Assembly: GCF_002831645.1 (NCBI RefSeq)
Contig: NZ_CP025117.1
Location: 1,867,514 to 1,931,513, forward strand
Length of the DNA: 64,000 nucleotides
From: Olleya sp. Bg11-27
Lineage (GTDB): Bacteria > Bacteroidota > Bacteroidia > Flavobacteriales > Flavobacteriaceae
Direction: 5' to 3'
Made by a program: the position numbers and the translations under genes. The notes beneath the pieces were generated by a model that saw only the letters and a list, made by a program, of their open reading frames with translations, did no database searches and was not told where the DNA came from. Shown in pieces: positions 5,931 to 46,702 of the stretch (position 1 is the stretch's first letter; each line of letters opens with the position of its first letter).

Positions 5931-6191
5931 TTATTTCCATTTATTTTCAAATTCGTCTTTGTCGATTGAATAATTTTCAAACTCACTCAAATCAAGATTT
6001 TGGTCGGATAGTCCTCCAAATTCATCTTCAAGATTTTGATTGTCATACTTTAAAATTTTTCCATTCTCATAAACCTCAATTTGTCTTAAAACTTCTCCAT
6101 TATTACCTGTCTCGAAAAACCAGACTGATTTTCCCCAAATTTCATATTGGTCGCCACGATTTTCGTCCCAATGTCGTTTAAAATATTTCAT
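5931..6191 (-). CDS. 86-aa cytosolic protein, second gene of a two-gene cassette
   Basis: The acidic soluble product begins MKYFKRHWDENRGDQYEIWG, has a WFFETGNNGEVLRQIEVYENG beta-rich centre, and ends FGGLSDQNLDLSEF...EFENKWK. I know similar short proteins in diverse bacteria, often next to TA- or immunity-like genes, but no function is established. Its ATG overlaps the stop of the upstream gene 6188-6592 (ATGA), so the pair is translationally coupled and moved as one unit. Confidence 0.75.
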   Translation of the reverse strand: MKYFKRHWDENRGDQYEIWGKSVWFFETGNNGEVLRQIEVYENGKILKYDNQNLEDEFGGLSDQNLDLSEFENYSIDKDEFENKWK

Positions 6192-15657: not shown

Positions 15658-16278
15658 CTAGTTTTTATTTTTTTGTAACAAATAACAATTGTCTTTTAAT
15701 TGAATGTCTTTTCCGTCATAAAAAGCAATTTCCATTTTTAAATCATCAATAAGCTTAGGTTGATCAATGGGACATATTTTAAAAAACTTATTTTTAATTA
15801 ATAAGTTTCCTGATTTACCATAAATCGAAATCATCGCATTGTTTTTATGGCTATTGATCCAATCTAAATTAAACCAGTGTCCTTTTTGTTTGTTTGGTAC
15901 CCAAAATGCTGTTTTAGGAATTTTACTTAATGTAATAACAGAATCAATGTCTTTTTGATATTTCAATTTCCAATCGGAGCCATTTTTTTTGTTCAGATAT
16001 TTATCGATTTCAGTGTTGTAGCTTTCAATTCCGTTTAGCTCAGTTCCGCTGACTACGCATCCAAATCCAACATTTTTAAATCCGTATTTCTGACTTACTT
16101 TATTCATTTCTATAGGTGAAATGATTGATTCGCCTACTAATACTTTGTGAGGTGTACTGTTTTTAATATCAGATTTTGCAGTTAAGTAATTAAATCGGTT
16201 AAAAAAGCCGTAGTGCCACAATCCAATGGCGATTAGAAATACTATTATTCCACTAAATATTATCTTTTTTTGATTCAT
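15658..16278 (-). CDS. signal-anchored protein, unknown function
   Basis: The product has 206 residues. An N-terminal hydrophobic helix (about 5-21, KKIIFSGIIVFLIAIGLWHY) acts as signal anchor. The rest is a soluble extracytoplasmic domain with VGFGCVVSGTELNGIESYNT, KTAFWVPNKQKGHWFNLDW and CPIDQPKLIDDL; the two or three Cys (in GFGCVV, KICPID, DNCYLL) could form a disulphide. No family recognised. The start at 16278 lies 8 nt from the diverged attC-like site. Confidence 0.75.
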   Translation of the reverse strand: MNQKKIIFSGIIVFLIAIGLWHYGFFNRFNYLTAKSDIKNSTPHKVLVGESIISPIEMNKVSQKYGFKNVGFGCVVSGTELNGIESYNTEIDKYLNKKNGSDWKLKYQKDIDSVITLSKIPKTAFWVPNKQKGHWFNLDWINSHKNNAMISIYGKSGNLLIKNKFFKICPIDQPKLIDDLKMEIAFYDGKDIQLKDNCYLLQKNKN

Positions 16279-23938: not shown

Positions 23939-25342
23939 TTAGTAGTATTCTAATGCTTGCTTGTACACTTGATATAATTTACCATCTCTAAAAATATTTT
24001 TTACCGTCCAATTACCATTGTTGTCAAAAACGTAAACATATTCTTTTGTAGATCCTATTGTTTTTAAATCGTCTCTATATTCAACATGCTTTATTAGTCT
24101 ACCGTTGTAGTCGTAGTAATATTCATTTCTATAGCTTTCCTTAAAATCACTATAATAGCTATAGTACAGCTCATTAGAATAGTTTTGTTTGTAATTGATA
24201 GCCTCTATTAATACTTCTTGGTCTTTTTGGTTATAATAAAGTTCTCTATAGTTTTTAGTAGACGTAAGTGCTCCGTTTTGATAACGTTTAACAGTTCTTT
24301 CATTATAATTTCCACCAGTACCAGAAAATCCAATATTTGGAAACTGACTTTCAGCCGCCTCGTAGGTTGTTGTTTCTATTAATTGCTGTTGTTTATCATA
24401 CACCTTTTGGTTGTAGGTGTATAATTTACCTTTGTTATACTGGGTTTCTTTTGGAAAGTATTCTACATATTTTTCGGTTATAAAACCTAAAGAATCATTT
24501 ACTCGTCTTTCTGCGACTACTCTTTTGATGTTTTCAGAATCAATTTTATATTTTTTCACTAAAATAGTATCCTTTAAATAGTCGTATAAATAGGTGCTGT
24601 TTAATTTTCCATCCGCATTATAGTGAGTTGCTTTAGTCTTTTTATTAGCATGGTTATAGGTGTAAATTGACTTCGTACTACTCTCTTTTTTATATTCATA
24701 ATACTCAGAAGACATCGTATTACCTTGATTATCATAAGTGGTTAAAAACTTAGTGTCAGGCACTTTGTTTTTGTCAGAATTAATACTTTCTATTTCATTA
24801 CCTTTCTTGTCATATTTAGTTTCGTAGAAGCGGTTGTATTGATATCTTAAAACTAATTGATTTTTATTGTTGTACGTGTATTCCTCATCCAGTGTCCATG
24901 CATCATCATCATAATCGTAGACTTGCGTTTTTTTACCCAATTTATTAAATTTGATATGCTTATCATATTTAATTTTTTCTTTATTATTTTCATAATAAGA
25001 ATAGCGTTTTAAAGACTTAACAGGACCATATAAGTTATAATATTCTGTGTCATAAGCTCTTTTCATAAAACCATCAAAGACATAACCTTTTAGGGTGTCG
25101 TTTTCTACCATAACCCAATGTCCAACGAGGGTACTAATTGTATCTAATCTATTGACTTTTTTTTCGTCAACTTCAAAATGATAGTCGTAAGGTAGCTTAC
25201 CAAGTCGTTCACTATTAATTGTTGGACGTTCTCTTATAATTAGCCCACTTTTTGCTTTGACAGTATAACTGCGTTGGGCAAAACATAACGTGCAAAATAG
25301 TGTTGCGCAAATGATGATTAGTGTTTTTAAAGGTGTAGTCAT
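23939..25342 (-). CDS. secreted SH3b-domain protein with YD/RHS-like repeats
   Basis: The product has 467 residues. SPI signal peptide (MTTPLKTLIIICATLFCTLCFA), then a bacterial SH3 domain (about 25-95: YTVKAKSGLIIRERPTINSE, then WVMVENDTLKGYVFDGFM). The remainder is a long beta-repeat region with some 12 repeats of the type YDYDxxxW..xxEYTYNNKNQLVLRYQY, as in YD/RHS-like toxin or wall proteins, but without an RHS core or toxin domain. Likely exported and possibly surface-attached. The gene's 5' region belongs to a duplicated block whose second copy is at 26645-26955. Confidence 0.8.
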   Translation of the reverse strand: MTTPLKTLIIICATLFCTLCFAQRSYTVKAKSGLIIRERPTINSERLGKLPYDYHFEVDEKKVNRLDTISTLVGHWVMVENDTLKGYVFDGFMKRAYDTEYYNLYGPVKSLKRYSYYENNKEKIKYDKHIKFNKLGKKTQVYDYDDDAWTLDEEYTYNNKNQLVLRYQYNRFYETKYDKKGNEIESINSDKNKVPDTKFLTTYDNQGNTMSSEYYEYKKESSTKSIYTYNHANKKTKATHYNADGKLNSTYLYDYLKDTILVKKYKIDSENIKRVVAERRVNDSLGFITEKYVEYFPKETQYNKGKLYTYNQKVYDKQQQLIETTTYEAAESQFPNIGFSGTGGNYNERTVKRYQNGALTSTKNYRELYYNQKDQEVLIEAINYKQNYSNELYYSYYSDFKESYRNEYYYDYNGRLIKHVEYRDDLKTIGSTKEYVYVFDNNGNWTVKNIFRDGKLYQVYKQALEYY

Positions 25343-25640
25343 ACTGATATTTAGTCTGTAAAATTTCTTTTTTATTTACTCTAAGCTAATAATACATACT
25401 TAATCTTAGGCATCTAGCTTAGATATATTGTCATATTATGGTTGATTTAGAAATTAAAAGTAATACTTTTTGATTACATTTAGGTCTCAATACATTTGGG
25501 AAGATTATAATGTCGTGGAAGTGTTATTGGAATTGTGAGTATGTAGTATTAATGAAAGCTTTTTGTTCCGATTTTTAATACGGTTACTGAGTTGTCTTAG
25601 TTTTTTTAAACGAGCAATGTTTATTATTTCTTCTTTTGCG
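25320..25640. repeat. copy 1 of a 310-bp direct repeat
   Basis: Runs from within the first codons of the SH3b gene (ggtgtagtcat), through the intergenic region, into the 3' end of the TPR gene (ttatttcttctttt). The second copy, about 85% identical by eye, is at 26645-26955. Confidence 0.7.
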
Positions 25641-27106: not shown

Positions 27107-28326
27107 CTATAAAACATACCATTTTCCTGTGGCGCTAGCATAATAGATTCTAAGCGGTCCACCTGTTGCAGTTGTATTATTAAAGTCTGTTCCTGTAGTT
27201 CTAATAGCGTGTCCGTTTGGGTTAACAGATGTATTTGAACCGTCCGCGTAAATATATACTTGTTGGCCGTTACTAGGGTTAGGTGGCAGTGAAATGATAA
27301 CAGTTCCGGAAGTTATCACTAATTGATTAACATCACTTAAAGTAATACTTGAAGCGGTTACAATAGTTAATAAATTGGCAGCAGCTCCATCAACGCCCGC
27401 TGGTCCTTGCGGTCCATCAGCGCCAGTTAGACCAGTTGGTCCGACAGGCCCCATTGGTCCCATTGGTCCATCTAGGCCAGGTGCACCATCAGCACCCGTT
27501 GCGCCCGTTGGTCCAATAGGTCCTTGTAAACCAGTTGCACCATCAGCACCTGTTGCGCCCGTTGGTCCAATAGGTCCTTGTAAGCCAGTTGCACCATCAG
27601 CACCTGTTGCGCCCGTTGGTCCAATAGGTCCTTGTAAACCAGTTGCACCATCAGCACCTGTTGCGCCCGTTGGTCCAATAGGTCCTTGTAAACCAGTTGC
27701 ACCATCAGCACCTGTTGCGCCCGTTGGTCCAATAGGTCCTTGTAAGCCAGTTGCACCATCAGCACCTGTTGCGCCCGTTGGTCCAATAGGTCCTTGTAAG
27801 CCAGTTGCACCATCAGCACCTGTTGCGCCCGTTGCTCCAATAGGTCCTTGTAAACCAGTTGCACCATCAGCACCTGTTGCCCCTGTTGTACCTATAGGTC
27901 CTTGTGAGGTCCAGGTGTTGAGCTTCCGCTTGTTTTAGCATATAATGCATAAGGTACACTCATTAATTGGGTGGTACCTGTTATTGTGTAATTACTACCT
28001 CCTGTCGGATCTGTTTCAGTTTTGATAAAAAAAGTATCGTTGGCCCAATCTATAGTTGTAAAATCTCCAATTGCTACGGTTCCTGTACCGATTTCTAAAC
28101 TTACTAAACCATTGGCATTGGTCATTGGTGTTTGTGTTTCGACATAGACTGCTGTTCCAGAGATTCCGCCTTGTAAAATACTTATTTCCATTCCTACAGT
28201 TGTAGATGCGACTAGAGTATTACTAGCATCTCTTATTACAGCTTGGTAACTCATTTTTTCAGGACTTTGTGCCCATGCGCTTGCAGCTAGTATTAATGCT
28301 GCTGTTATTGTAACTATTTTTTTCAT
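27107..28326 (-). pseudogene. collagen-like surface protein gene, frameshifted
   Basis: 5' part (28326-27892): signal peptide (MKKIVTITAALILAASAWA) and the conserved Bacteroidota N-domain (PEKMSYQAVIRDASNTLVAS... to [20 protein letters not shown]). There the frame is lost: GGA CCT CAC AAG GAC CTA TAG. In the frame one base off, the product continues as a Gly-X-Y collagen repeat ([18 protein letters not shown] units) to a C-terminal beta domain ending [14 protein letters not shown] at 27107. The intact paralogue 30474-32024 has the same junction in frame (TPGPTGPQGIAG), so this copy lacks bases there (net minus one mod 3). Either a pseudogene, a phase-variable state or a sequencing error. Confidence 0.85.
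27480..27900 (-). repeat. 54-bp tandem repeats encoding Gly-X-Y units
   Basis: Nearly eight copies of a 54-bp unit, each coding 18 residues (six Gly-X-Y triplets). Units differ at only a few positions, for example ccagttgcacc with taaacc or taagcc before it, so copy number is likely to vary by slippage or recombination. Confidence 0.9.
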
Positions 28327-28879: not shown

Positions 28880-29953
28880 TAAGGTGTTATTGAATTGTTT
28901 TGTTTGTTGGGCACTAGTTTTTTTGTGGTTATAGTGTAATCTGTCTCTGCAAAAATCTGCTTGCAATAGGATATTGTTTGTTCTCTATGATTAACATCAT
29001 GTGTGTGTCTTTATTTTACTGTCGTAACTATTTAGTCATTCATTTCGGACATCTGATTTTTGAATTTAATACGCTTTAAAGAGGATTTCATAAACTCTCC
29101 AGAGTTAGTATTCAGTATTTTTTTACTTTTTGGACTTCTACAAAATCTGTAACTGTCACTTCTCTTTCACTTGTTGATAGTTAGTTGTATCAATATATTT
29201 ACTATTCACACCTGATAAGATTGTCCTATGCAAACTTACATTTATTTTTATATTTGAAAAACAGGTATAACTACGTGTTTTTGTATTATTATCAGTCGAT
29301 TATGGCGTAGTTGAGAGTCGTTGTTAAGAGGGGAGGCGGAAGGCAAAAAATAACTATCATAACACCAATTGGTTATATCTTTTGAGCTTGAACTCATGGG
29401 ACCTAAAGATGCTAAGTCATCAATGTTAGTAATTGGTATTTGGATAAGTGCATTGTCTACTATTGAATGTGGAGCGGCTGTATTTGATGCTTTTTTAAAT
29501 TGTTCTGAGAGCATCAATATTTGTGTCATATTATTCCATAAGTTGTGGAGCCTTTTCTTCCGCTCTCTTTATAAGTGAATTTAATAATAGAACCTTTGAG
29601 TGTTCCTTGAATAGCAATTGGATTGTCTTTTAAAAAAAACTATTGTGGGTTGCTATTCCTATTAATGAATCCTTTTTATCTTTAAAATAAAATATCATAT
29701 AAAAAGACTGTAAATTTTAATATATTCAATTCAAAACTATTGCGAACCTTAGCGGATAATAAAAATTAAGACTTTTAAAAAGTTTAATTTACTTAATCTA
29801 TAAAAATACTATAGGCTTGTGCTATGATTATTTCTGGTACTATTGGTTTTTTGTTTACAAGCAATTTCAATTAATAATATTATTTGATATGTTAATAAAT
29901 TTATGTTAGTTTTTTTTAAGTTAACTTTATAGAAATCTTAAAAAGTTAACGCA
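28880..29953. other. 1-kb intergenic region between the two T9SS/collagen pairs
   Basis: No gene I can support. A 93-codon minus-strand frame (29248-29529) reads partly like protein (SEQFKKASNTAAPHSIVDNA, IQIPITNIDDLASLGPMSSS), but its end runs into a decayed type C repeat at 29188-29330 and it has no stop-to-start logic, so it may be the remnant of a truncated gene. Just before the plus-strand gene, AAGTTAAC...AAAAGTTAACG at about 29919-29952 forms a loose inverted repeat. Confidence 0.5.
29188..29330. repeat. decayed type C element
   Basis: Keeps ctgataagattgtcctatgcaaacttac, ggtataactacgtg and tattatcag from the type C head, with many changes. It indicates that cassette-array sequence once reached this point. 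Confidence 0.5.
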
Positions 29954-30473: not shown

Positions 30474-32024
30474 ATGATTAAAAAATTACACACCTTTTTA
30501 GTAGCATTATTAATTACTGTTACAACATTAGCACAGACACCAGAGAAGATGAGTTACCAAGCTTTGGTAAGAAATGCTACAGACGATTTAGTCAGTAACC
30601 AAGCGATAGGTATGCAAATAAGCATACTAGAAACTACAGCAACAGGAACAGCTGTTTATGTCGAAACCCAAAATCCAACGACTAATATTAATGGATTGGT
30701 AACGTTAGAAATAGGTTCAGGAAGTATTGTAAGTGGCGATTTTACGACTATAGATTGGTCTGCTGGCGCGTACTTTATAAAAACAGAAACAGATCCGACA
30801 GGAGGTAGTGCATACACAATAACAGGTACTAGCCAATTAATGAGTGTACCTTATGCATTATATGCAAAAACTTCTGGTAGTTCAACACCTGGCCCTACTG
30901 GTCCACAAGGTATTGCTGGAGCTGATGGCGTTGATGGCGCAACAGGAGCGCAAGGCCTGCAAGGTATTGCTGGTACTGATGGCATTGATGGCGCAACAGG
31001 AGCGCAAGGCCTGCAAGGTATTGCTGGTGCTGATGGTGCTGATGGTGCAATAGGAGCACAAGGCCCCCAAGGTATTGCTGGTACTGATGGCGTTGATGGT
31101 GCAACAGGAGCGCAAGGCCTGCAAGGTGTTGCCGGTAATGATGGAGCTGATGGCGCAACAGGCCCGCAAGGTCTAACAGGAAATGACGGAGCTGATGGTG
31201 TAGGTATCGCACAAACATTAAGTTTTACGTCACCTAATATATCGCTATCTGACGGTGGTGGAACTATTGATTTGACAGCACTTATAGATGATGCTGATTC
31301 TGATCCTGACAATGAAATTCAAAATATCACTTTAGCTGGAGATGTTCTTAGTATTTCTGGAGGTAATTCAGTTACTTTACCTACTAATGGTGGAATTTGG
31401 TCTACAGTTAGTACAGATTATAATCAAATAGACTTTGCAGGGACAGCGGATGCAGAAATAAGAGGTGACGGTGGTACGGATTTAAGCGGAAATGATTTTG
31501 GATTAGGAGATGGAGTTTTTTGGGGAAGTAACCCAGGAGAAGACACTGGAATGTTTACTGATGGAGATCAAATACTATTTATTTCTCCGGCAGATAGTGA
31601 ATTAGTACAATTTTGGGAAGAAGATGGACACCAATTAGTTGCTCAAATTTCTTCAGCTGGTGCTTATTCTCAAATCTCAGATGAAACCTTAAAGCAAAAT
31701 ATTGTGGTAATTGATAATGCTTTAGAAAAAACGTTAAATCTTTCAGGATATACGTATGAATTCAAGCAAAATAAAGAAGATATCAAGAAAGGGACTCCAG
31801 TTGAATTAGGAATTGGAATACTTGCTCAAGAATTGCAAAAAGTAGCTCCTAGATTAGTTACTAAAACTGACCAAGGACATTTTGTAGTTAATTATGATGG
31901 AATTATTCCAATTTTAATTGAAGCAACAAAAGAACAGCAAGGTTTAATTAATGCGCAACAAACTGAAATTGATAATTTAAAAGCTGAAATTGAAACTATT
32001 AAATTAATGTTATCCAAAAGATAA
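30474..32024 (+). CDS. collagen-like protein with C-terminal S74 chaperone domain
   Basis: The product has 516 residues. Signal peptide (MIKKLHTFLVALLITVTTLA), conserved N-domain (PEKMSYQALVRNATDDLVSN... to [12 protein letters not shown]), Gly-X-Y collagen tract (about residues 139-243, GIAGADGVDGATGAQGLQ-type units), a beta-rich middle, and a C-terminal peptidase S74 / chaperone-of-endosialidase domain (SDETLKQNIVVIDNALEKTL, then GIGILAQELQKVAPRLV) with a terminal coiled coil. S74 domains fold a trimeric fibre and then cut themselves off. The product is likely a trimeric surface fibre. It is the intact version of the frameshifted gene 27107-28326, though that one has a different C-terminus. 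Confidence 0.88.
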   Translation: MIKKLHTFLVALLITVTTLAQTPEKMSYQALVRNATDDLVSNQAIGMQISILETTATGTAVYVETQNPTTNINGLVTLEIGSGSIVSGDFTTIDWSAGAYFIKTETDPTGGSAYTITGTSQLMSVPYALYAKTSGSSTPGPTGPQGIAGADGVDGATGAQGLQGIAGTDGIDGATGAQGLQGIAGADGADGAIGAQGPQGIAGTDGVDGATGAQGLQGVAGNDGADGATGPQGLTGNDGADGVGIAQTLSFTSPNISLSDGGGTIDLTALIDDADSDPDNEIQNITLAGDVLSISGGNSVTLPTNGGIWSTVSTDYNQIDFAGTADAEIRGDGGTDLSGNDFGLGDGVFWGSNPGEDTGMFTDGDQILFISPADSELVQFWEEDGHQLVAQISSAGAYSQISDETLKQNIVVIDNALEKTLNLSGYTYEFKQNKEDIKKGTPVELGIGILAQELQKVAPRLVTKTDQGHFVVNYDGIIPILIEATKEQQGLINAQQTEIDNLKAEIETIKLMLSKR

Positions 32025-33765: not shown

Positions 33766-35541
33766 TTAGAAATCATTTTGTAAATATTGCGTTTCTAGTC
33801 TCAATGTTTTAATTGCGCCTGTGTTTTTGTTTAAATCGGCCTTTAAAAACATCGCTTTAAAATGGTCTATAGCTTCAATAAATTCTTGTTTTGTGATATT
33901 ATTATCGTGTGGCGAAAAATAAAAATGGTAGTCTTTATTGTCTAAATCAATGCTAGGCGCTAGGAGTTGTTTCATGCTTGTGCTTCTTTTTCTGTCGGCA
34001 AGCTCTGTACTAGTCAGTATTATTTTTTCAGAATTAAATACCGTGTCTCTATCTTGTTCCCTATAGTTTGAATATTTAGAGCGACGCTTTTTTTTGATTC
34101 TGAGTTCAGTAGCACTCATCTTGTAATCGACAAGCAGGCTATACTTTTTTAATGATTGTTTAGTAAATACAGAATCATATATTTTAGCTTGAAGTAGTCT
34201 TACACGGTTATTATCTAACACAATATTATAACCTAAACGCTTATCGTTTAAAAGGGTATTTAGCGCTTCTGTTTTTGATTGTGTATTGGAGTAATAAGGT
34301 GCATAAGGATTTACATAACTGTCTATGTTAGGTTTTAAAGTCCCTTTTAGTGCTGTCGTATCGTTGGTGTAAACATAAATAAAGGGATTGCTTTTAAGGA
34401 TGCTGTCATATTTTGCCTTAAAAATGGTAAACACCGCATTATAGTCGCTAGACGCCTTTTTATTGGCTTTTGTTATGGGATCATCACCGTTTAATACTAT
34501 TGCAAAAAAAGCAATTAAGAGCAGTATACAAATTATTAGGACTGTAGTTACTGGGAGCGTAGAATATTCTTTTTTTATTTTTTTTGAATGTGAATCTGTA
34601 GATTTTACATTGTCATTGTCATCAATTACAGCGTCTGAATAGGATGGTTTTGAGGGGGCTAAATCAGAATCGTTAATATGAGGATATAACCGTTTTATTT
34701 GTTGTTTTGTAGCGTCACTATAAGGGTTGCTGTCAAACCAAACCTCTAATTTTTTTGTGTTTAATCTTGAAAAGGAGGCTGGTAATGTTGTTATTTTATT
34801 ATAACTAATATCTAAGTTTGTTAATCTAGTAAGCTGACCAATATTGGTTGGTAATTTTTGGATTTCATTTTCACTAACATTAAGGTAGCTTAGCTTTTTT
34901 AGATTGCAAATCGATTCAGGGAGGTATTTAATTTTGTTAATTCCAAAATTGATTTTTTCTAAATTAATAAGATTACCAAAACTATCAGGAAAGTACTCAA
35001 AGCAATTGGCTTCGGCCCATAATTCTCTTAAATTTTTTAATTTGTCAATAGCGTCAGGTAGTGTTGTCAATTTATTTCCATCTAATGACAGTACTTTTAA
35101 AGCGCTTAACCGTGTTACCACATCTGGTAAGGTTTCTAATTTAAGATCGTAGATTCCAAGATCCTTTAAGGCATACAATTTATCAATCCATTGTGGAAAT
35201 TCAATTAAAGGGTTAGAGCCTATATCAAAATCTTCTAGATTTGAGAGCGTACTAAAGGATTTAGGGATACTTGTAATCTGATTTTCAGAAAGCGATATGG
35301 TTTTTAAATATCTAAATTTAAGAAGCTGTTCTGGCGCCACTTTAAACTTATTATTTCTAAGTGTAATGACCTCTAAGTATTTTAGTTCTGTAATAAAATC
35401 AGGTAACTCTGTAAGTTGATTATTACTTAAATCAAGTACTTTTAAATTCCCCTCTTTTAAAATGCTTTTAGGAACCGTTTGTAGTGATTGCCCTGATAGA
35501 TCTAAAATACTATTGTCTGTTGCTTGGTAAGCCATTGTCAT
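33766..35541 (-). CDS. leucine-rich-repeat membrane protein
   Basis: The product has 591 residues. Eleven LRRs from about residue 13 to 275 in the LxxLPxxIxxLxxLxxLxLxxN form (LKVLDLSNNQLTELPDFITE, LKVLSLDGNKLTTLPDAIDK, LTNLDISYNKITTLPASFSR). A Ser/Asp-rich linker with basic patch (KKIKKEYS) leads into one TM helix (about 328-349, TTVLIICILLLIAFFAIVLN) and a C-terminal extracytoplasmic domain of about 240 residues without match. There is no signal peptide, so the LRR part should be cytosolic. It forms the head of the run with the Crp-like gene 5 bp downstream. Confidence 0.85.
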   Translation of the reverse strand: MTMAYQATDNSILDLSGQSLQTVPKSILKEGNLKVLDLSNNQLTELPDFITELKYLEVITLRNNKFKVAPEQLLKFRYLKTISLSENQITSIPKSFSTLSNLEDFDIGSNPLIEFPQWIDKLYALKDLGIYDLKLETLPDVVTRLSALKVLSLDGNKLTTLPDAIDKLKNLRELWAEANCFEYFPDSFGNLINLEKINFGINKIKYLPESICNLKKLSYLNVSENEIQKLPTNIGQLTRLTNLDISYNKITTLPASFSRLNTKKLEVWFDSNPYSDATKQQIKRLYPHINDSDLAPSKPSYSDAVIDDNDNVKSTDSHSKKIKKEYSTLPVTTVLIICILLLIAFFAIVLNGDDPITKANKKASSDYNAVFTIFKAKYDSILKSNPFIYVYTNDTTALKGTLKPNIDSYVNPYAPYYSNTQSKTEALNTLLNDKRLGYNIVLDNNRVRLLQAKIYDSVFTKQSLKKYSLLVDYKMSATELRIKKKRRSKYSNYREQDRDTVFNSEKIILTSTELADRKRSTSMKQLLAPSIDLDNKDYHFYFSPHDNNITKQEFIEAIDHFKAMFLKADLNKNTGAIKTLRLETQYLQNDF

Positions 35542-35775
35542 TTGTTAAATCAGAACACAATTATAATCAAGATTGCATTAGTAAACTTCTGGAATGTCTT
35601 TTATTTTAAATTTCAATTTGAAAAAAAAAGACCTTTGTGTTAAAACTACTGCTTTTAAATAGGTCATGTAAATCGTAAAGTCTTTGGATGTTTGGTTAAA
35701 AAATGAGTAATGCCTTTTGAGGTTGACACATCGGATTGTCTTTAAAGCTACAGGTCAATACGTTGTTAACGATAC

Positions 35776-36840
35776 TTATGCATTCCATTTTTTGTAAAGC
35801 TTAGTAGCCGTTATCCACATGTTGGTATCCCATTCTGCGTGGTTGTTAGCAGTCTCTAATCGGATGTGTTCACGTAATTCTTGTTGTTTATTTAACAGAG
35901 GTAGATCTATTAAAGGTGGTCCTAAATCATGTTTTTTTAATGTCCACTGCCTTGCGTTTGAGCTAAAAGCAGTGTGGTCTATAATCGCTTGTATTTTATT
36001 AAAATCAGTTCTAAATTCAAGACCATCATTTTTATTTTGAAAGGTGTCACCTAGTCGTTCAAAAATAACAAACTCTAAAACTGGGCAGCGTTGTAATACT
36101 TCTGGTAATATGTCAAGTAGCACTTCTGGGATGCGACCATCGTGCGTATCTCTTCTAATGGGTTTGGTTAAGTTATGGTCATGGTCCCAACTACCTCCAG
36201 ACAAGTGAATTTCTTTTACCAAATGTAAAGGATAAGAGGTGATGATGGTTAACAGGTCTAAATCAAAATTTATGGATTGACAATAAATATTATGAAGATC
36301 TAGAATTACAAAGCCGTTAATCGGTGCTACTAGTTTTTCAATAAAAGCCCCTTGTTTTAGGATGTCAGAAACGTTGGAAGCTAAAGCTAAGTTTTCTATC
36401 CCAATATCTAGCTGAACGGTGTTTTGAAGGCGTTTTAAGCGATCTATACCAATATTAAGAATCGTATTAGATAAATCAAAAGGAAGCGGAAACCCATGGT
36501 GCGCATTCGCACTGCTCATTACTCCAAAATGTTCAGAAAGGTGATTGTAGTTATAGGCTAGTGTCTCTAGTTTTGCTTTTTGTAGCCAGTTGTCTTGATT
36601 AGCGCCCCAATTAGCATCCAAAGGCGCATAATAGACCCCATGACCAAGCAGTCGGTTATTATCTCCGTATTCTTTTAATAATAACGGAAGCCATTCTGGT
36701 TGGTACTTTTTATCCAATATAGTATCAAAAGACCACTCAATAACTTCTACCTGAGCGCTTTCAAATAAAGGGAGTGCGGCGGCTATAAATTCTGGATTAG
36801 GCATTATAGATAAGCCTAGTTTAGGTTTGTTTATTTTCAT
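35776..36840 (-). CDS. MNIO (DUF692-type) multinuclear iron enzyme, putative RiPP-modifying
   Basis: The product has 354 residues from ATG 36840 (MKINKPKLGLSIMPN); an 8-codon upstream extension exists but would overlap the precursor frame. The residues expected for the triple-iron site of the DUF692/MbnB fold are in order: GHGVY (His67), LSEHFG (Glu103, His104), IENLA (Glu149, Asn150), LDLHN (Asp181, His183, Asn184), VKEIHLSGG (Glu210, His212), DTHDG (Asp231, His233) and IFERLG (Glu261). MNIO enzymes oxidise Cys or C-terminal residues in ribosomal peptides (MbnB, TglH, ChrH, bufferin enzymes). The C-terminal 80 residues are an extension. It is a divergent subgroup: no MbnC/DUF2063 partner is present. 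Its start codon overlaps the precursor stop (TAATG), so they are coupled. Confidence 0.87.
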   Translation of the reverse strand: MKINKPKLGLSIMPNPEFIAAALPLFESAQVEVIEWSFDTILDKKYQPEWLPLLLKEYGDNNRLLGHGVYYAPLDANWGANQDNWLQKAKLETLAYNYNHLSEHFGVMSSANAHHGFPLPFDLSNTILNIGIDRLKRLQNTVQLDIGIENLALASNVSDILKQGAFIEKLVAPINGFVILDLHNIYCQSINFDLDLLTIITSYPLHLVKEIHLSGGSWDHDHNLTKPIRRDTHDGRIPEVLLDILPEVLQRCPVLEFVIFERLGDTFQNKNDGLEFRTDFNKIQAIIDHTAFSSNARQWTLKKHDLGPPLIDLPLLNKQQELREHIRLETANNHAEWDTNMWITATKLYKKWNA

Positions 36841-37085
36841 TATCCCATACCACATGCAGGACAATAGCCCATAGTATGTCTGGCATCATTTTGTTTTTTT
36901 AACTCGAGTAATTTTTTTTGCTCTAACGCTGTGGAGTCTGCTGCAACTACTGTTTGAGGTGTGCTAGGTTTGACCGGTTTGTGTTGTTTTATAATAACAC
37001 TTTTAGTTTGTGTGCTATCCACTTGTGCTGTAACACTAAGCGATGTGGTTATTATACTTGCTAATACGAGGTTTGAAAGTTTCAT
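36840..37085 (-). CDS. putative secreted RiPP precursor ending CPACGMG
   Basis: The product has 81 residues: SPI signal peptide (MKLSNLVLASIITTSLSVTA, about 1-20), a 50-residue Lys/Gln/Thr-rich linker, and a C-terminal Gly-Tyr-Cys75-Pro-Ala-Cys78-Gly-Met-Gly81 core. The only two Cys of the protein are in this core. Its stop TAA overlaps the ATG of the MNIO gene by one base. Gene order and signal peptide resemble exported MNIO substrates (bufferin type), but the core differs from any I know. Modification of the Cys residues is inferred. Alternatively it could be a small metal-binding periplasmic protein. Confidence 0.75.
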   Translation of the reverse strand: MKLSNLVLASIITTSLSVTAQVDSTQTKSVIIKQHKPVKPSTPQTVVAADSTALEQKKLLELKKQNDARHTMGYCPACGMG

Positions 37086-37135
37086 CTGTGATTTTTTTAT
37101 TACAAAATTATGATAAACGGGGTTTAGATTTTCGA

Positions 37136-37396
37136 CTATCCCCTACCACAAGCGGGGCAATTATCATGCCTTATTTTGGGTTCGAGAGGTATTGGTAACT
37201 GATCAACGGAATCTTTAGAGACCGCGACACGTTCTGTTTTAGGTTTTGTAGTTCAGTTATGTATTGGTGTCACCACATTACGTTTAGTCGAGTCTTGGTG
37301 GACGATAGGTTGCTCTGTTTTTGGTTTTGTATTTTCCATACAACCACTAACAGAAGACGCTATAAGACTGGCTACTACTATATTTGAAAGTTTCAT
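37136..37396 (-). pseudogene. second precursor paralogue with internal UGA
   Basis: On minus, an 86-codon frame begins MKLSNIVVASLIASSVSGC (lipoprotein signal, Cys19) and ends NCPACGRG at TAG (37138-37136). UGA lies at codon 48 between TPIHN and TTKPKTE. The first five residues (MKLSN) and the CPACG-basic/Met-G end match the 81-aa precursor. Probably a duplicated precursor inactivated by one nonsense mutation, lying 50 bp upstream of the intact one in the same direction. A sequencing error would restore an intact gene. Confidence 0.75.
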
Positions 37397-37744
37397 AGGT
37401 GATGTGCTTTAATTACAATATACTTAATTTAAGACTAATTTGTTTTTTGCGGTTATAAGTTAACTGTTTTTTTTGAAATAGGGTAGTGGTTGTTTGTTGT
37501 GGTGTTGTAATTTTATTGTTGAATCAAGCTTTGCAAATATCAATCTCAATGCTTGAACGACTCAGAGAGTCGTGCTGTGGAAAATATAAGAGCAAACTCA
37601 AGAATCAATGCATTAGGGAAAATACCTAATTATTAAAATGAGGGAATACCCTATGGGTAAAAGCAAGTTATGAAAGTACCTTATGAAACATAATCAAAAG
37701 AGAAGTATAAGATTGGATATCTACTATCATTTCTTTTAGTTAGA
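37397..37744. other. intergenic, no supported gene
   Basis: 348 bp separating the MNIO locus from the second cassette block. It contains a small perfect palindrome-like ctcagagag region (near 37560) but no ORF, repeat or promoter I can support. Confidence 0.4.
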
Positions 37745-37796
37745 AAGGAGCACTCCGGCTATTTTAGTCGGAGCCGTCTACTCGATTATATGCAGG
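37745..37796 (-). repeat. type C tail fragment
   Basis: Only the terminal module is left: gcactccggctattttagtcggagccg (hairpin CTCCGGCTA/TAGTCGGAG) and ctactcgattatatgcagg, directly next to the stop of 37797-40441. Confidence 0.65.
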
Positions 37797-40441
37797 CTAT
37801 TTTGTAAAATAATTAAAATATAATTTACCTAAATCTTCATTGTATTTTAGAGATAACTCTTCTTTTAATCTAACTTTTATATCTTCATTTTTGCCTAAGA
37901 TTTCTAAAACGACTTTTGATTGGTTTTCAAGTAACCAATAAATATTAAATTTTTCAGAAATTAAATGCTTATCTAAGTTTAATATAAAAAGATAGTAAGG
38001 ATTAAATTGTTTTATTTTTATGATTATATCGTTATTTAAAACTGCTTTGTCATTTAATTTATAAATTATTGTCACTAATTTATTTAGAGGCTCTCTGAAT
38101 TTCATAGGAATACCAGTGTTTGGACTTACGTTGTTGAAAAGAATAGTAGGTTTTCCATTGATTACTTTTTCATGAGATTCAATGTATTTCTTAACATATG
38201 AGTTTGTAATTTGTATTGAATCACTAATTATTGCTTGATAAAATAATTCGCTAATAAAATTGTTGTTTAAGGATTTCTCAATTGTCAATCCAAGTTTTTC
38301 CTTATGTTCATCAGAAAGAGTTTTTTTTAAAGCTTCTAAAACACCATATTCTGGACTTTCGGTTACTGTTTTAAAAATCGATAGAAGTAAGGCTTCACTA
38401 GATTTATTAAAGGTGTATTTTTTTTCATTTAATGAGTAAATCGCATTTGTAATAAGATATCCATTTGTTAGTTCTTTATCGATTAAAGTACTAATTAAAT
38501 CTAAAATTTGTTTTGTTTTAAAGATTTCTGGCTTTCTTAATAAAGGGTGTGCAAGAATTGATAATTTATGAATTGAAAAATCTAATTTCTTAATGTAAAT
38601 AATTATTTTATCGAGTATGTTTTTTTCAAATTCAGTTTCTAAGTAGGCTAGTAGAATACATAGGTTTCAAAAATATTTTCCGTAGTTCTTCTTAATTCTT
38701 TATTTTTAGTTCTGTTATCAATATAAATAATTTCTGATTCTAAAAAGTTTATATTTTCTATAGAAAAGAAATTTGATAAACATGTATTTAAATAATTAAT
38801 ATCTGATTGATAAGGAATTTTATTTATTTTATTTCTTTGAAAGTATTTTAATAGGTTTGAATGGTCGCAATTATGAATTATACTTTCTATCATAAAATCA
38901 TTAAATCTTTCAAAATGACTTGAAAACTCATTATTCATTGAATATGAAATAATAAAACTTTCAATTACTTTTTCAGTCAAGTTATTATGTTCTTTGTATG
39001 TGGTTAAATAGTTTCCTTCTATGAAATTCACATATTCTCCATATTTATAATATAATTTCCATATTAAATCAGATGTGTTATTTACACTTTTTCGTTGTTT
39101 ATAATCTTTTATTTTTGTGTAGATTTCATCTATTGAATTTGAGTAATCATTGGTCAGTTTACCATTGTTTATAGCTGTAAGAATAGAATAATGTTCAGAA
39201 GATATATTTAATTTATCTAATTCTATTTCAACATTCGGAATATTTTCCTCCCATTTTTTATAAGCTATATCTCGTAGGTTGTATTTTGATATAAAATATA
39301 TTACTGGTTCTTTGTTTTCTTTTGCTTTTTCAGAAATATCTTCAAGCAAAGTTTTAGCTTTGTCAAAATGTCCTATTTTAATTAATCCAAGCGAATATTG
39401 AAGTGATTTCCAGAGGTTATTTGAGTCAGCTTCTAGTTTGATTGTTTTGTTTAAGACTGACCCAAAATTTAATCTTTTATAAGAACAGCTAATACAATTA
39501 CATATTTCTTTTTTCTTAATTTTTATATCTAGTTTTTCGTTAGAAGATCCTTTATCTACTTGAATAATTAAATTATCATTTAAAATATTGACAATACTTT
39601 CAATTTTAAATTCTGCATCATCTACATTTAATAGGATTTTTTTATTTTTTATTTTTACTTTTTCATTAAACCCTAATGAAGAAAAAAAAGTCCAAATATC
39701 TTCATGGTTCGTGTGTAATGTAAAACCATTGTAGTAAGTTCTAGTATTATTTTTTTTTGAAAAAGAAATTTTATCAATTAATCTCCAAGATGTAATTCTT
39801 CTAAAGTTCTTAAATTCTTTCAAGCAGATATATAATTGGTCTATTATATTTTTGTCTTTGATAGTTTTGAAAAGTTCTACATTATTGTTTTCAAATAGTG
39901 ATTTTTTTGGGTTTTTATGTTTTTCTTCAACTTCTCGAATTAATTTTTGTCTAGAATACTCTTCAGTTGTTAAAATCCCGTTTTTAATAGTTCTTAAAAT
40001 AGTTTTCTCATCTAGATTTCTATAGTTTTTGAATAATCTAGATTTTGTCAAACTAAAAATAAAATATTCTTTTAAGGTTTTTTTATCTTTTCTTAATCTA
40101 AACTCTTTTTTTATTTGACTAGATGTAAAGAAATAATGAATTTTATCTCCATTTTCATCATTTGTGTGAAGAAATGCAAAAAAGTTTGTTCTTAAAGTAT
40201 CAATGTCTTCAACATAGTCTTTAGCAATTTTGACTTCGTTTTGTGCTTCAAAATATTTAGCCTGTACTATCCCTTGCTCTTTAAATTTTCTAAATTCTTT
40301 AATATCATTGAATGGGATTTCTACAATAAAATCAGTACCATCTATATCGACACTTCTCTCACTAACGAAAAAATATTCACTCAGGATAGCGTTTGTTCTA
40401 GACTCCCCAAGATTACCATTAAAATTTTGTTTGTCGAGCAT
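37797..40441 (-). pseudogene. large DUF4365-like protein gene with one frameshift
   Basis: Two frames (40441-38648 and about 38645-37797) join into one product of about 880 residues: the first ends ...ENIFETYVFY-TAG, while one frame over the sequence continues AYLETEFEKNILDKIIIYIK and runs into the last 163 codons (MTIEKSLNNN... to LYFNYFTK). The N-terminus has a PD-(D/E)XK-like signature as in DUF4365 (GESRTNAI, DIDGTDFIVE with Asp34/Asp37, GIVQAKYFE with Gln60-Lys62). The remainder is helical, TPR-like in places. DUF4365 proteins are often found in phage-defence contexts; the role here is inferred. It lies in the cassette array. Confidence 0.75.
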
Positions 40442-42556: not shown

Positions 42557-42624
42557 TGCAATACGTTTTTGAAAAGCTATTAACAGTACCAGTTACATAG
42601 CCAACATATCTGGTAAAAAGATAA

Positions 42625-43154
42625 TGTCTAGTCCTGAAATATGGCTACAGGTTAAAATTGAATTTAGGCTGGTGATTTATATACCATATTAGGTGTTTTA
42701 TAATCTAAAGATAAATGTAATCTTACTTCGTTGTATAAATTAATTGCATTTTTTGCAGCTCTATGTGCTTGTACCACGTTGTCTAAGGTTTGATCTAGAT
42801 AGAATTCATATTTTAAGATGCCTTTTACATATTCTGACATGGCGTTTTCGTAACAGTGATTTTTTAGTAAAAGAGCGATCAAAAATTAGTAAAATGGGCA
42901 ATCAAAAACTTAGACATTTATTGTTTATGTGTCCTTTTAGCGCTTGTAAATACAACAATGCATGCCAAGCTATTTATGAGCGATTAGTCGCTAACGGAAA
43001 AAGCAAAAAATTAGCCTTAATAGCGGTTTGTAATAAGCTATTAAAACAGGCATTTGCTATTGCTAAATCAGGGTTAATATTTGATAAAGACTATAAAAGT
43101 ACGTTAGTGAAAAATTAATGACATTTTACTTGTTTTTTAACAGAGTACTTTGTT
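42625..43154. mobile_element. fused IS3/IS110 remnant, copy 1
   Basis: 530 bp starting tgtctagtcctgaaatatgg, an IS-end-like sequence. On minus (42882-42664) it codes the C-terminus of an IS3-type OrfB (ALLLKNHCYENAMSEYVKGI, then NLYNEVRLHLSLDYKTPNMV). On plus (about 42862-43118) it codes the C-terminus of an IS110 transposase (SKMGNQKLRHLLFMCPFSAC, then LIAVCNKLLKQAFAIAKSGL). The two are joined head to head. Both lack their catalytic parts and are dead. The other copy is at 46164-46694. Confidence 0.85.
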
Positions 43155-43167
43155 GTAACCAGTACTT

Positions 43168-45543: not shown

Positions 45544-46161
45544 TTAGTTACTTAATTTTAATAAAATATTCTGCAATTCAATAATGTCTTCTCTAACAGC
45601 AGGCTCTTTTACAATTTTCAGTGCTTTATTAGAGAATTCAGAGGATACTTTATAATCTTCTTTTTTATAATATGAGTTTGCTAAATTGTAATAAAAATAT
45701 CCCTTTCTTTCTTGTATGTCTTCAAAATTGAGTCCCTTTTTTAAAACTTCAATTGACTTGTCAAATTTTAAAAGTTTATTGTACGCAGTTCCGAAGTTCA
45801 TATAGGTCGAAGTATTTGTGCTATCAATTTTTAATGATTTTTCGAAATACATAATACATTCATTTAAATTTTTTAAATCTGCTGAAATAATACCTAAAGC
45901 ATTAAGAATAATATTATTATTTGGTTCAATCTTATTTGCTTTTTGATACAGTTTTTTCGCTTTTTCAAAGTTTCCTTTCACGTATTGGTCAGAAGCTAGG
46001 TCAAAAGTGACTGAAGCAATTGAGTCTTTCATCCAACCTTTGTCATATTGATTTTTATAAAATATCGTTGTGTCTTTCGATTGTTTTGAAATAGTCTTTT
46101 CAGAATCTGATTTACAATTTAGAAAAGATAAGGTTATCAATGTTATTAGTATGTTCCTCAT
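45544..46161 (-). CDS. TPR lipoprotein
   Basis: The product has 205 residues. SPII signal (MRNILITLITLSFLNC, Cys16). Three to four TPRs from about residue 50 to 190 (ASDQYVKGNFEKAKKLYQKA, LNALGIISADLKNLNECIMY, NSYYKKEDYKVSSEFSNKAL). Periplasm-facing scaffold of unknown partner. The start side is cut by IS remnant copy 2 (from 46164), so its leader is gone or supplied by the remnant. Confidence 0.8.
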   Translation of the reverse strand: MRNILITLITLSFLNCKSDSEKTISKQSKDTTIFYKNQYDKGWMKDSIASVTFDLASDQYVKGNFEKAKKLYQKANKIEPNNNIILNALGIISADLKNLNECIMYFEKSLKIDSTNTSTYMNFGTAYNKLLKFDKSIEVLKKGLNFEDIQERKGYFYYNLANSYYKKEDYKVSSEFSNKALKIVKEPAVREDIIELQNILLKLSN

Positions 46162-46163
46162 AA

Positions 46164-46694
46164 TGTCTAGTCCTGAAATATGGCTACAGGTTAAAATTGA
46201 ATTTAGGCTGGTAATTTATATTCCATATTAGGTGTTTTATAATCTAAAGATAAATGTAATCTTACTTCGTTGTATAAATTAATTGCATTTTTTGCAGCTC
46301 TATGTGCTTGTATTACATTGTCTAAGGTTTGATCTAGATAGAATTCATCTTTTAAGATGCCTTTTACACATTCTGACATGGCGTTTTCGTAACAGTGATT
46401 TTTTTAGTAAAAGGGCGACCACGAATTAGTGAAATGGGCAATCAAAAACTTAGAAATTTATTGTTTATGTGTCCTTTTAGCGCTTGTAAATACAACAAAG
46501 CATGTAAAGCAATTTATGAGCGACTAGTCGCTAAAGGAAAAAGCGAAAAATTAGCCTTAATAGCGGTTTGTAATAAGCTATTAAAACAGGCATTTGCTAT
46601 TGCTAAATCAGGGTTAATATTTGATAAAGACTATAAAAGTACGTTAGTGAAAAATTAATTACATTTTACTTGTTTTTTAACACAGTACTTTGTT
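46164..46694. mobile_element. fused IS3/IS110 remnant, copy 2
   Basis: 531 bp, more than 95% identical to 42625-43154 by eye. Minus-strand IS3 OrfB end (stop at 46203-46205) and plus-strand IS110 end (about 46402-46658, SEMGNQKLRNLLFMCPFSAC). One extra T after gtgat changes the frame at the fusion. It ends at cacagtactttgttggcc next to 46703-47302. Confidence 0.85.
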
Positions 46695-46702
46695 GGCCAC
46701 TG

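Follow-up and report, generated by a model that had tools for sequence, protein, structure and literature searches.

The window analysed here, a stretch of 64,000 nucleotides from the genome of Olleya sp. Bg11-27, codes for a DUF692-type enzyme next to a short, apparently exported peptide that ends in CPACGMG. The question is whether this gene pair is an MNIO system of a new kind or belongs to a known one. The original prediction set the pair apart from the MNIO systems already known, among them chryseobasin, by its core and its partner set-up. Neither distinction could be kept: CPACGMG is the chryseobasin core (PMC10214503), and a partner-free two-gene type, DybA/DybH, has been published (PMC12636315). 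A categorically new MNIO class was rejected, as the core, the layout, the extension and the export have all been described (PMC10214503, PMC12636315). We assign the locus, with high confidence for membership and outline mechanism taken together, to the ChrH/DybH subfamily of MNIOs (CPxCGxG RiPPs), of which it is a new member. Its features are listed in Table 1.

Table 1. Features of the locus, with positions in the window; G005 is a second genome of the same genus.
Feature	Position	Strand	Description
MNIO (DUF692) maturase, ChrH/DybH subfamily	35776..36840	-	354 aa; barrel and C-terminal helices (~residues 270-353)
Precursor 1	36840..37085	-	81 aa; predicted Sec-type signal; C-terminal core CPACGMG
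Precursor 2 remnant	37136..37396	-	Predicted lipoprotein-type signal, lipobox SVSGC; in-frame TGA at 37253-37255; C-terminus NCPACGRG
Dispersed intergenic element AATCGAGTAGA..CTCCGACTAAAATAGCCGGAG	37732..37790	.	Repeat family D12, 66% to reference; upstream edge of the operon
Block common to the window and G005	35782..37788	-	Element, precursor 2, precursor 1 and enzyme; 80% identity over 2064 columns

The enzyme gene starts with the ATG at 36840 on the minus strand, and its frame runs down to 35776. A TTG-started ORF of 362 aa is a longer version of this frame, and some searches used an enzyme version with two additional residues at the N-terminus. The TAA of precursor 1 overlaps the enzyme start as TAATG, which confirms the predicted coupling of a DUF692-type enzyme to an 81-aa peptide. 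In Pfam, the enzyme matches PF05114 (MbnB_TglH_ChrH) with 80.5 bits (cut-off 25). Among the NCBIfam profiles, MNIO_ChrH scores 403.7 bits, 336 bits above the next-best profile, and is aligned over positions 1-361 of 363, including the extension; the score is below the equivalog cut-off of 600. The other matches are BufB (68 bits, cut-off 310), HvfB (55 bits, cut-off 360) and ApyH (35.5 bits), and the MbnB family gave no match at E<=1. Precursor 1 matches the ChrA profile with 28.6 bits (positions 1-71 of 71, cut-off 50) and ChrA_rel with 21.7 bits (cut-off 40), both below cut-off. Neither enzyme nor peptide reaches the equivalog cut-offs of the strict chryseobasin models (NF050165, NF050124, NF050162). 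For scale, the ChrH profile scores 686 bits for a Chryseobacterium enzyme (L082), 434 for one from Aquimarina (L046) and 395 for one from Dyadobacter (L119), and only the first of these exceeds 600; the peptide of the Dyadobacter locus is above the ChrA_rel cut-off (64.3 vs 40). The Chryseobacterium locus (Chryseobacterium sp. JM1) is, from its gene order, likely the published chr cluster. The enzyme is 46% identical to the ChrH of this ChrI-carrying locus and 39% identical to the Dyadobacter homologue.

Two specific identities were rejected. For methanobactin, there is no MbnB match, and no partner-type domain was detected in a Pfam scan of the four neighbouring ORFs, which agrees with the expected lack of an MbnC/DUF2063-type partner. 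For bufferin, BufB reaches 68 of 310 bits, and precursor 1 has no match in a Pfam search. BufB, HvfB, MbnB and TglH (the bufferin, oxazolin, methanobactin and pearlin MNIOs) share with the enzyme the barrel and a large part of its metal-ligand pattern, but their systems differ from that in the window by other precursors and by separate partner proteins. BufB and HvfB are not known to have a C-terminal helical domain. MbnB and TglH are described as lacking it (PMC12636315).

The structure predicted for the enzyme from 31 sequences (pLDDT 93.1, pTM 0.92) has TglH, MbnB and 3bww as top PDB matches in Foldseek. Its helices at residues 270-289, 313-328 and 339-353 make the final 85 residues a series of helices and linkers in the model, and with the profile alignment to position 361 they indicate that a C-terminal helical part follows the barrel. 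Nine residues, presumably the iron ligands (H67, H104, E149, D181, H183, H212, D231, H233 and E261), are invariant in the 31 aligned sequences. A full iron-ligand set had been claimed; this invariance speaks for it, but in a phmmer alignment with TglH an identical residue is found for only eight of the nine, H104 being the exception. For HvfB, N175, D242 and H244 are named as site-3 residues (PMC13419390). The enzyme is under purifying selection, with a dN/dS of 0.155 against its G005 copy (354 codons, simple Nei-Gojobori count).

Precursor 1 has just two cysteines, Cys75 and Cys78, both within the C-terminal CPACGMG, as had been stated. By eye and by hydropathy, it has a Sec-type signal with a likely signal peptidase I site between SVTA and Q, and it has no lipobox, Cys75 being its first cysteine. 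This is consistent with the proposed export, which has been published for the subfamily (PMC12636315). The DNA pattern TGYCCNGCNTGYGG, which codes for CPACG, occurs twice in the window (shuffle mean 0.00), and both copies are at the 35776-37396 locus; its presence there is not due to chance. In the 4.31-Mb genome, the pattern TGYCCNGSNTGYGGNNNNGGNTRR (a C-terminal CP-A/G-CGxG followed by a stop) is likewise found twice, both times at this locus, and the reversed control gave 0. The dN/dS of precursor 1 against G005 is 0.33 (79 codons, simple Nei-Gojobori), a rough value from a short sequence.

The published subfamily provides the frame for this assignment. The logo of ChrA from 115 clusters ends in CPACGMG, and ChrH orthologues exceed MbnB by about 80-100 aa (PMC10214503). 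The chr cluster is also given in PMC11002830, and the chryseobasin enzymes correspond to MNIO cluster 4 (PMC12452194). PMC12636315 defines the subfamily motif as CPxCGxG and describes the C-terminal domain, a helical bundle, for all members. Among the precursors of the subfamily, ChrA and MelA1 carry a signal for signal peptidase I, whereas DybA has a type II signal and is lipidated (PMC12636315). With chryseobasin (ChrA/ChrH/ChrI, PMC10214503), the locus shares the core CPACGMG, the secretion-type signal and the C-terminal extension of the enzyme. Unlike chryseobasin, it scores below the equivalog cut-offs, has an added lipoprotein-type second precursor and lies in a genome devoid of ChrI, and no chr-type gene was found among the four neighbours scanned. 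With DybA/DybH and the other DAG-RiPPs (Dyadobacter, Chitinophaga, Hymenobacter; PMC12636315), it shares the minimal cluster of precursor and MNIO without a partner, and precursor 2 matches their lipobox type. Unlike in DAG-RiPPs, the open precursor in the window has no lipobox, and comparison of the enzyme with three lipobox-type enzymes gave identities of 37-39%. A DAG-RiPP would need an intact lipobox precursor; in the window this copy is interrupted by the TGA, and in G005 it is open.

Co-occurrence of enzyme and peptide in relatives was the check named beforehand. Relatives were taken from an aligned-query scan of genome contigs, and the best 80 of 361 were analysed. Chryseobacterium accounts for 57 of these 80, which hence are not independent cases. 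A same-strand ORF ending in C..CG.G lies within 2.5 kb upstream of the enzyme gene at 78 of the 80 loci, so that the pair does recur. A single such ORF was counted at 69 loci, two at 4 loci, three at 2 loci, four at 3 loci and none at 2 loci; the count for L086, which is among the nine loci with more than one, includes a fragment some 13 residues long. In one of the misses (L085), the Chryseobacterium precursor upstream of position 6001 ends in CPAYGMG, with Tyr for the second core Cys, and in the other (L114), the contig begins inside the enzyme gene. In the control, none of the 2839 ORFs outside -2500 to +1300 of the enzyme start at the same loci ends in C..CG.G; control ORFs were from both strands, began with ATG and had at least 30 aa, while the upstream count made no demand for ATG, so that the two were not counted quite alike. 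A single-sequence scan of genome contigs (11 stretches matched) and a scan of viral contigs (69 stretches matched) gave no relative.

Motif position 2 varies in two loci with only one precursor (CIACGMG in L046, CVACGMG in L056). Seven loci (L052, L058, L063, L088, L101, L102 and L112) have two to four tandem secreted-type precursors upstream of a single ChrH-type enzyme, with the cores CPPCGMG, CPGCGMG, CEACGRG, CGKCGKG, CNKCGLG and others. The two single precursors and the array cores CEACGRG, CGKCGKG and CNKCGLG suggest that the enzymes may accept more cores than CPxCGxG. The operons of L046 (Aquimarina) and L047 (Pedobacter) are near histidine-biosynthesis genes, as judged by eye from the ORFs.

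In a quick tree of 85 enzymes, those from the window and from G005 group with enzymes from Aquimarina and Pedobacter (90 SH-aLRT). This clade is outside the Chryseobacterium clade and also outside the lipobox clade, in a tree with long branches and a weak order among groups. When the loci are labelled as secreted, lipobox or both (79 of the 85 rows, set by eye, 6 left out), at least 4 changes are needed on this tree. With this locus, a recently described RiPP subfamily gains a lineage that belongs neither to the secreted chryseobasins nor to the lipidated DybA type. ChrI was found by tblastn beside 50 of the 57 Chryseobacterium loci and beside none of the 23 others (best 80 of 361; some loci are short). 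It was detected neither in the window nor in the G005 stretch by tblastn, and a profile search found it in the genome of L082 but neither in the window's own genome nor in G005.

Both precursor types are present at this one locus. Precursor 2 sits upstream of precursor 1, and its frame starts with MKLSNIVVASLIASSVSGC. Its counterpart in G005 is an open frame (P0008, L003:912-1181). The gene order in G005 is identical to that in the window (lipobox precursor, secreted precursor, enzyme), with both precursor frames open and an enzyme that is 78% identical. The G005 lipobox precursor has 89 aa, ends in CPACGMG and scores 27.2 bits with ChrA. The secreted one has 94 aa, the signal SVSAQ and the terminus CRACGMG, and it matches neither ChrA nor ChrA_rel at E 0.01. 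In G005, the initial 82 nt of one precursor gene recur at the start of the other as a direct repeat (71% identical), which points to a local duplication. The dN/dS of precursor 2 against G005 is 0.39 (85 codons, stop column skipped), again rough because of the short sequence. A further mixed pair of a secreted and a lipobox precursor was found in another lineage (L066), and none was found in the main text of PMC12636315, to which the search was confined. The signal of a precursor at L070:5628-5987 can be read by eye either as a lipobox (LASC) or as a signal peptidase I type (VTMAQ), and this precursor is possibly an intermediate between the signal types.

Before the TGA broke its frame, the lipobox copy probably served the enzyme as another substrate, and this one enzyme probably served both an anchored and a free product. 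A more extended scenario is tentative, and we rate its chances as slightly less than even. In it, a single ChrH-type enzyme would install an identical ring on both members of a tandem precursor pair, one destined to be a lipoprotein with a lipid anchor and the other to be secreted as a free peptide. The pair itself would stem from a local duplication together with a switch of signal peptide. Opposite drift in the two species would have followed, leading to the TGA in the lipoprotein copy here and to CRACGMG in the secreted copy of G005, and the operon would have stayed together as a block during the exchange of its immediate neighbours. Such a natural pair of a free and an anchored product would offer a handle on the question of whether these rings act at the membrane or extracellularly.

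The same TGA and the same CRACGMG, together with the presence of the enzyme in just 2 of 10 genomes of the genus, might also be signs of a decaying operon, in which the pathway is disappearing, the lipoprotein precursor having been its main product and the secreted copy being a relic. We consider decay improbable, as the frame of the enzyme is open with a dN/dS of 0.155, the start of the enzyme gene overlaps with precursor 1, whose core is perfect, and position-2 variants of the core (CIACGMG in L046, CVACGMG in L056) stand as the only precursor elsewhere.

Returning to one enzyme with two precursors, we propose the following outline, in which chemistry, order of events and export are modelled on published relatives. 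In the cytoplasm, the iron enzyme would bind the C-terminal CPACGMG of the precursor. A four-electron oxidation would then yield a macrocycle between the two former cysteines and a hydantoin, with a mass shift of -4 Da, or of +10 Da if a thiol is S-methylated as well. The C-terminal helical domain of the enzyme may fill the role that a separate partner has in other MNIOs, as already suggested in the original prediction; this idea gains from the published helical bundle and from MelH, which gave no product without the separately encoded MelHc (PMC12636315). The modified peptide would be exported by Sec and cut by signal peptidase I after about A20, so that some 61 aa would be set free. The lipobox copy upstream of it would have undergone lipidation and anchoring, but in the window a stop interrupts it. 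As precedents, the chryseobasin product has a macrocycle, an imidazolidinedione, thioaminals and a thiomethyl group (PMC10214503). The two-gene, partner-free DybAH gives a product of -4 Da, the product at the CPxCGxG motif is described as containing a macrocycle and a hydantoin and as showing no UV-vis feature, and the seven-residue motif alone was enough for modification when placed on GFP (PMC12636315). We lean towards an unmethylated product because the enzyme is outside the Chryseobacterium clade. The absence of ChrI from the genome says less about methylation, as ChrI was later found to be dispensable for the methylated product (PMC12636315).

Binding of copper or another metal by the modified CxxC had been proposed for the peptide. 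In a rival reading along this line, the enzyme would convert the C-terminal Cys residues into a thiooxazole or an oxazolone-thioamide, and the exported peptide would chelate copper. The MNIO family of the enzyme, the CxxC at the C-terminus of the precursor and the weak BufB and HvfB matches (68 and 55 bits, with cut-offs of 310 and 360) fit this reading, but it is very unlikely given the lead of the ChrH profile by 336 bits, a precursor without a Pfam match, four neighbouring ORFs without a partner-type domain and a published same-motif product described as lacking the absorbance feature of such heterocycles (PMC12636315). The family comparison gave nothing in favour of copper chelation, which was dropped as the leading idea.

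The operon has a patchy distribution, because few ChrH matches were found in the genus, family and phylum samples. Near-full-length matches occur in 2 of 10 genomes of the genus and in 1 of 397 in the family sample (the window's own genome; any match in 8 of 397). In the phylum sample, 6 of 395 genomes have a ChrH match at E<1e-90, the window's own included, and 26 have any match; among the six, the match in G467 is limited to profile positions 1-289. The block common to the window and G005 ends at the enzyme stop on one side and at the dispersed element on the other, and the immediate flanks are not common. The AATCGAGTAGA..CTCCGACTAAAATAGCCGGAG element is also present at the upstream edge of the G005 operon (L126:9405-9478). 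Further downstream, two stretches recur in conserved order (29530-29702 and 23939-25361 in the window, 15824-15994 and 16776-18195 in L126), so the operon is at the corresponding place in G005, with its close neighbours exchanged.

A scan for regulatory sites gave 12 promoter-like sites (8.0 expected) and 1 terminator-like site (1.7 expected). A Bacteroidota-type promoter pattern occurs 12 times (7.2 expected; reached in 6 of 100 shuffles), with no occurrence in 35500-37800.

Positions 2037-49404 of the window form a cassette-like array, mostly of single minus-strand ORFs, which is also seen near 2.34-2.35 Mb of the genome and near 386-424 kb in G005. Between the ORFs lie intergenic repeat elements some 75-300 nt long, one family of which has 15 copies in one orientation in the window. 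With one element copy as query, there are at least 48 matches in the genome and at least 43 in G005, many of them short and partial. The fold of one repeat copy has a z of -0.44. The integron integrase model TIGR02249 matches both genomes only below cut-off, as it does in 14 of 14 control genomes. Within the array, about 535 nt with a transposase-like fragment (by eye) are duplicated at 42621-43155 and 46160-46695 (95-97% identical). At 27342-27989 and 30846-31200, 54-bp tandem repeats appear by eye to code for collagen-like Gly-rich stretches, which are clearest in the exported protein at 30474-32024.
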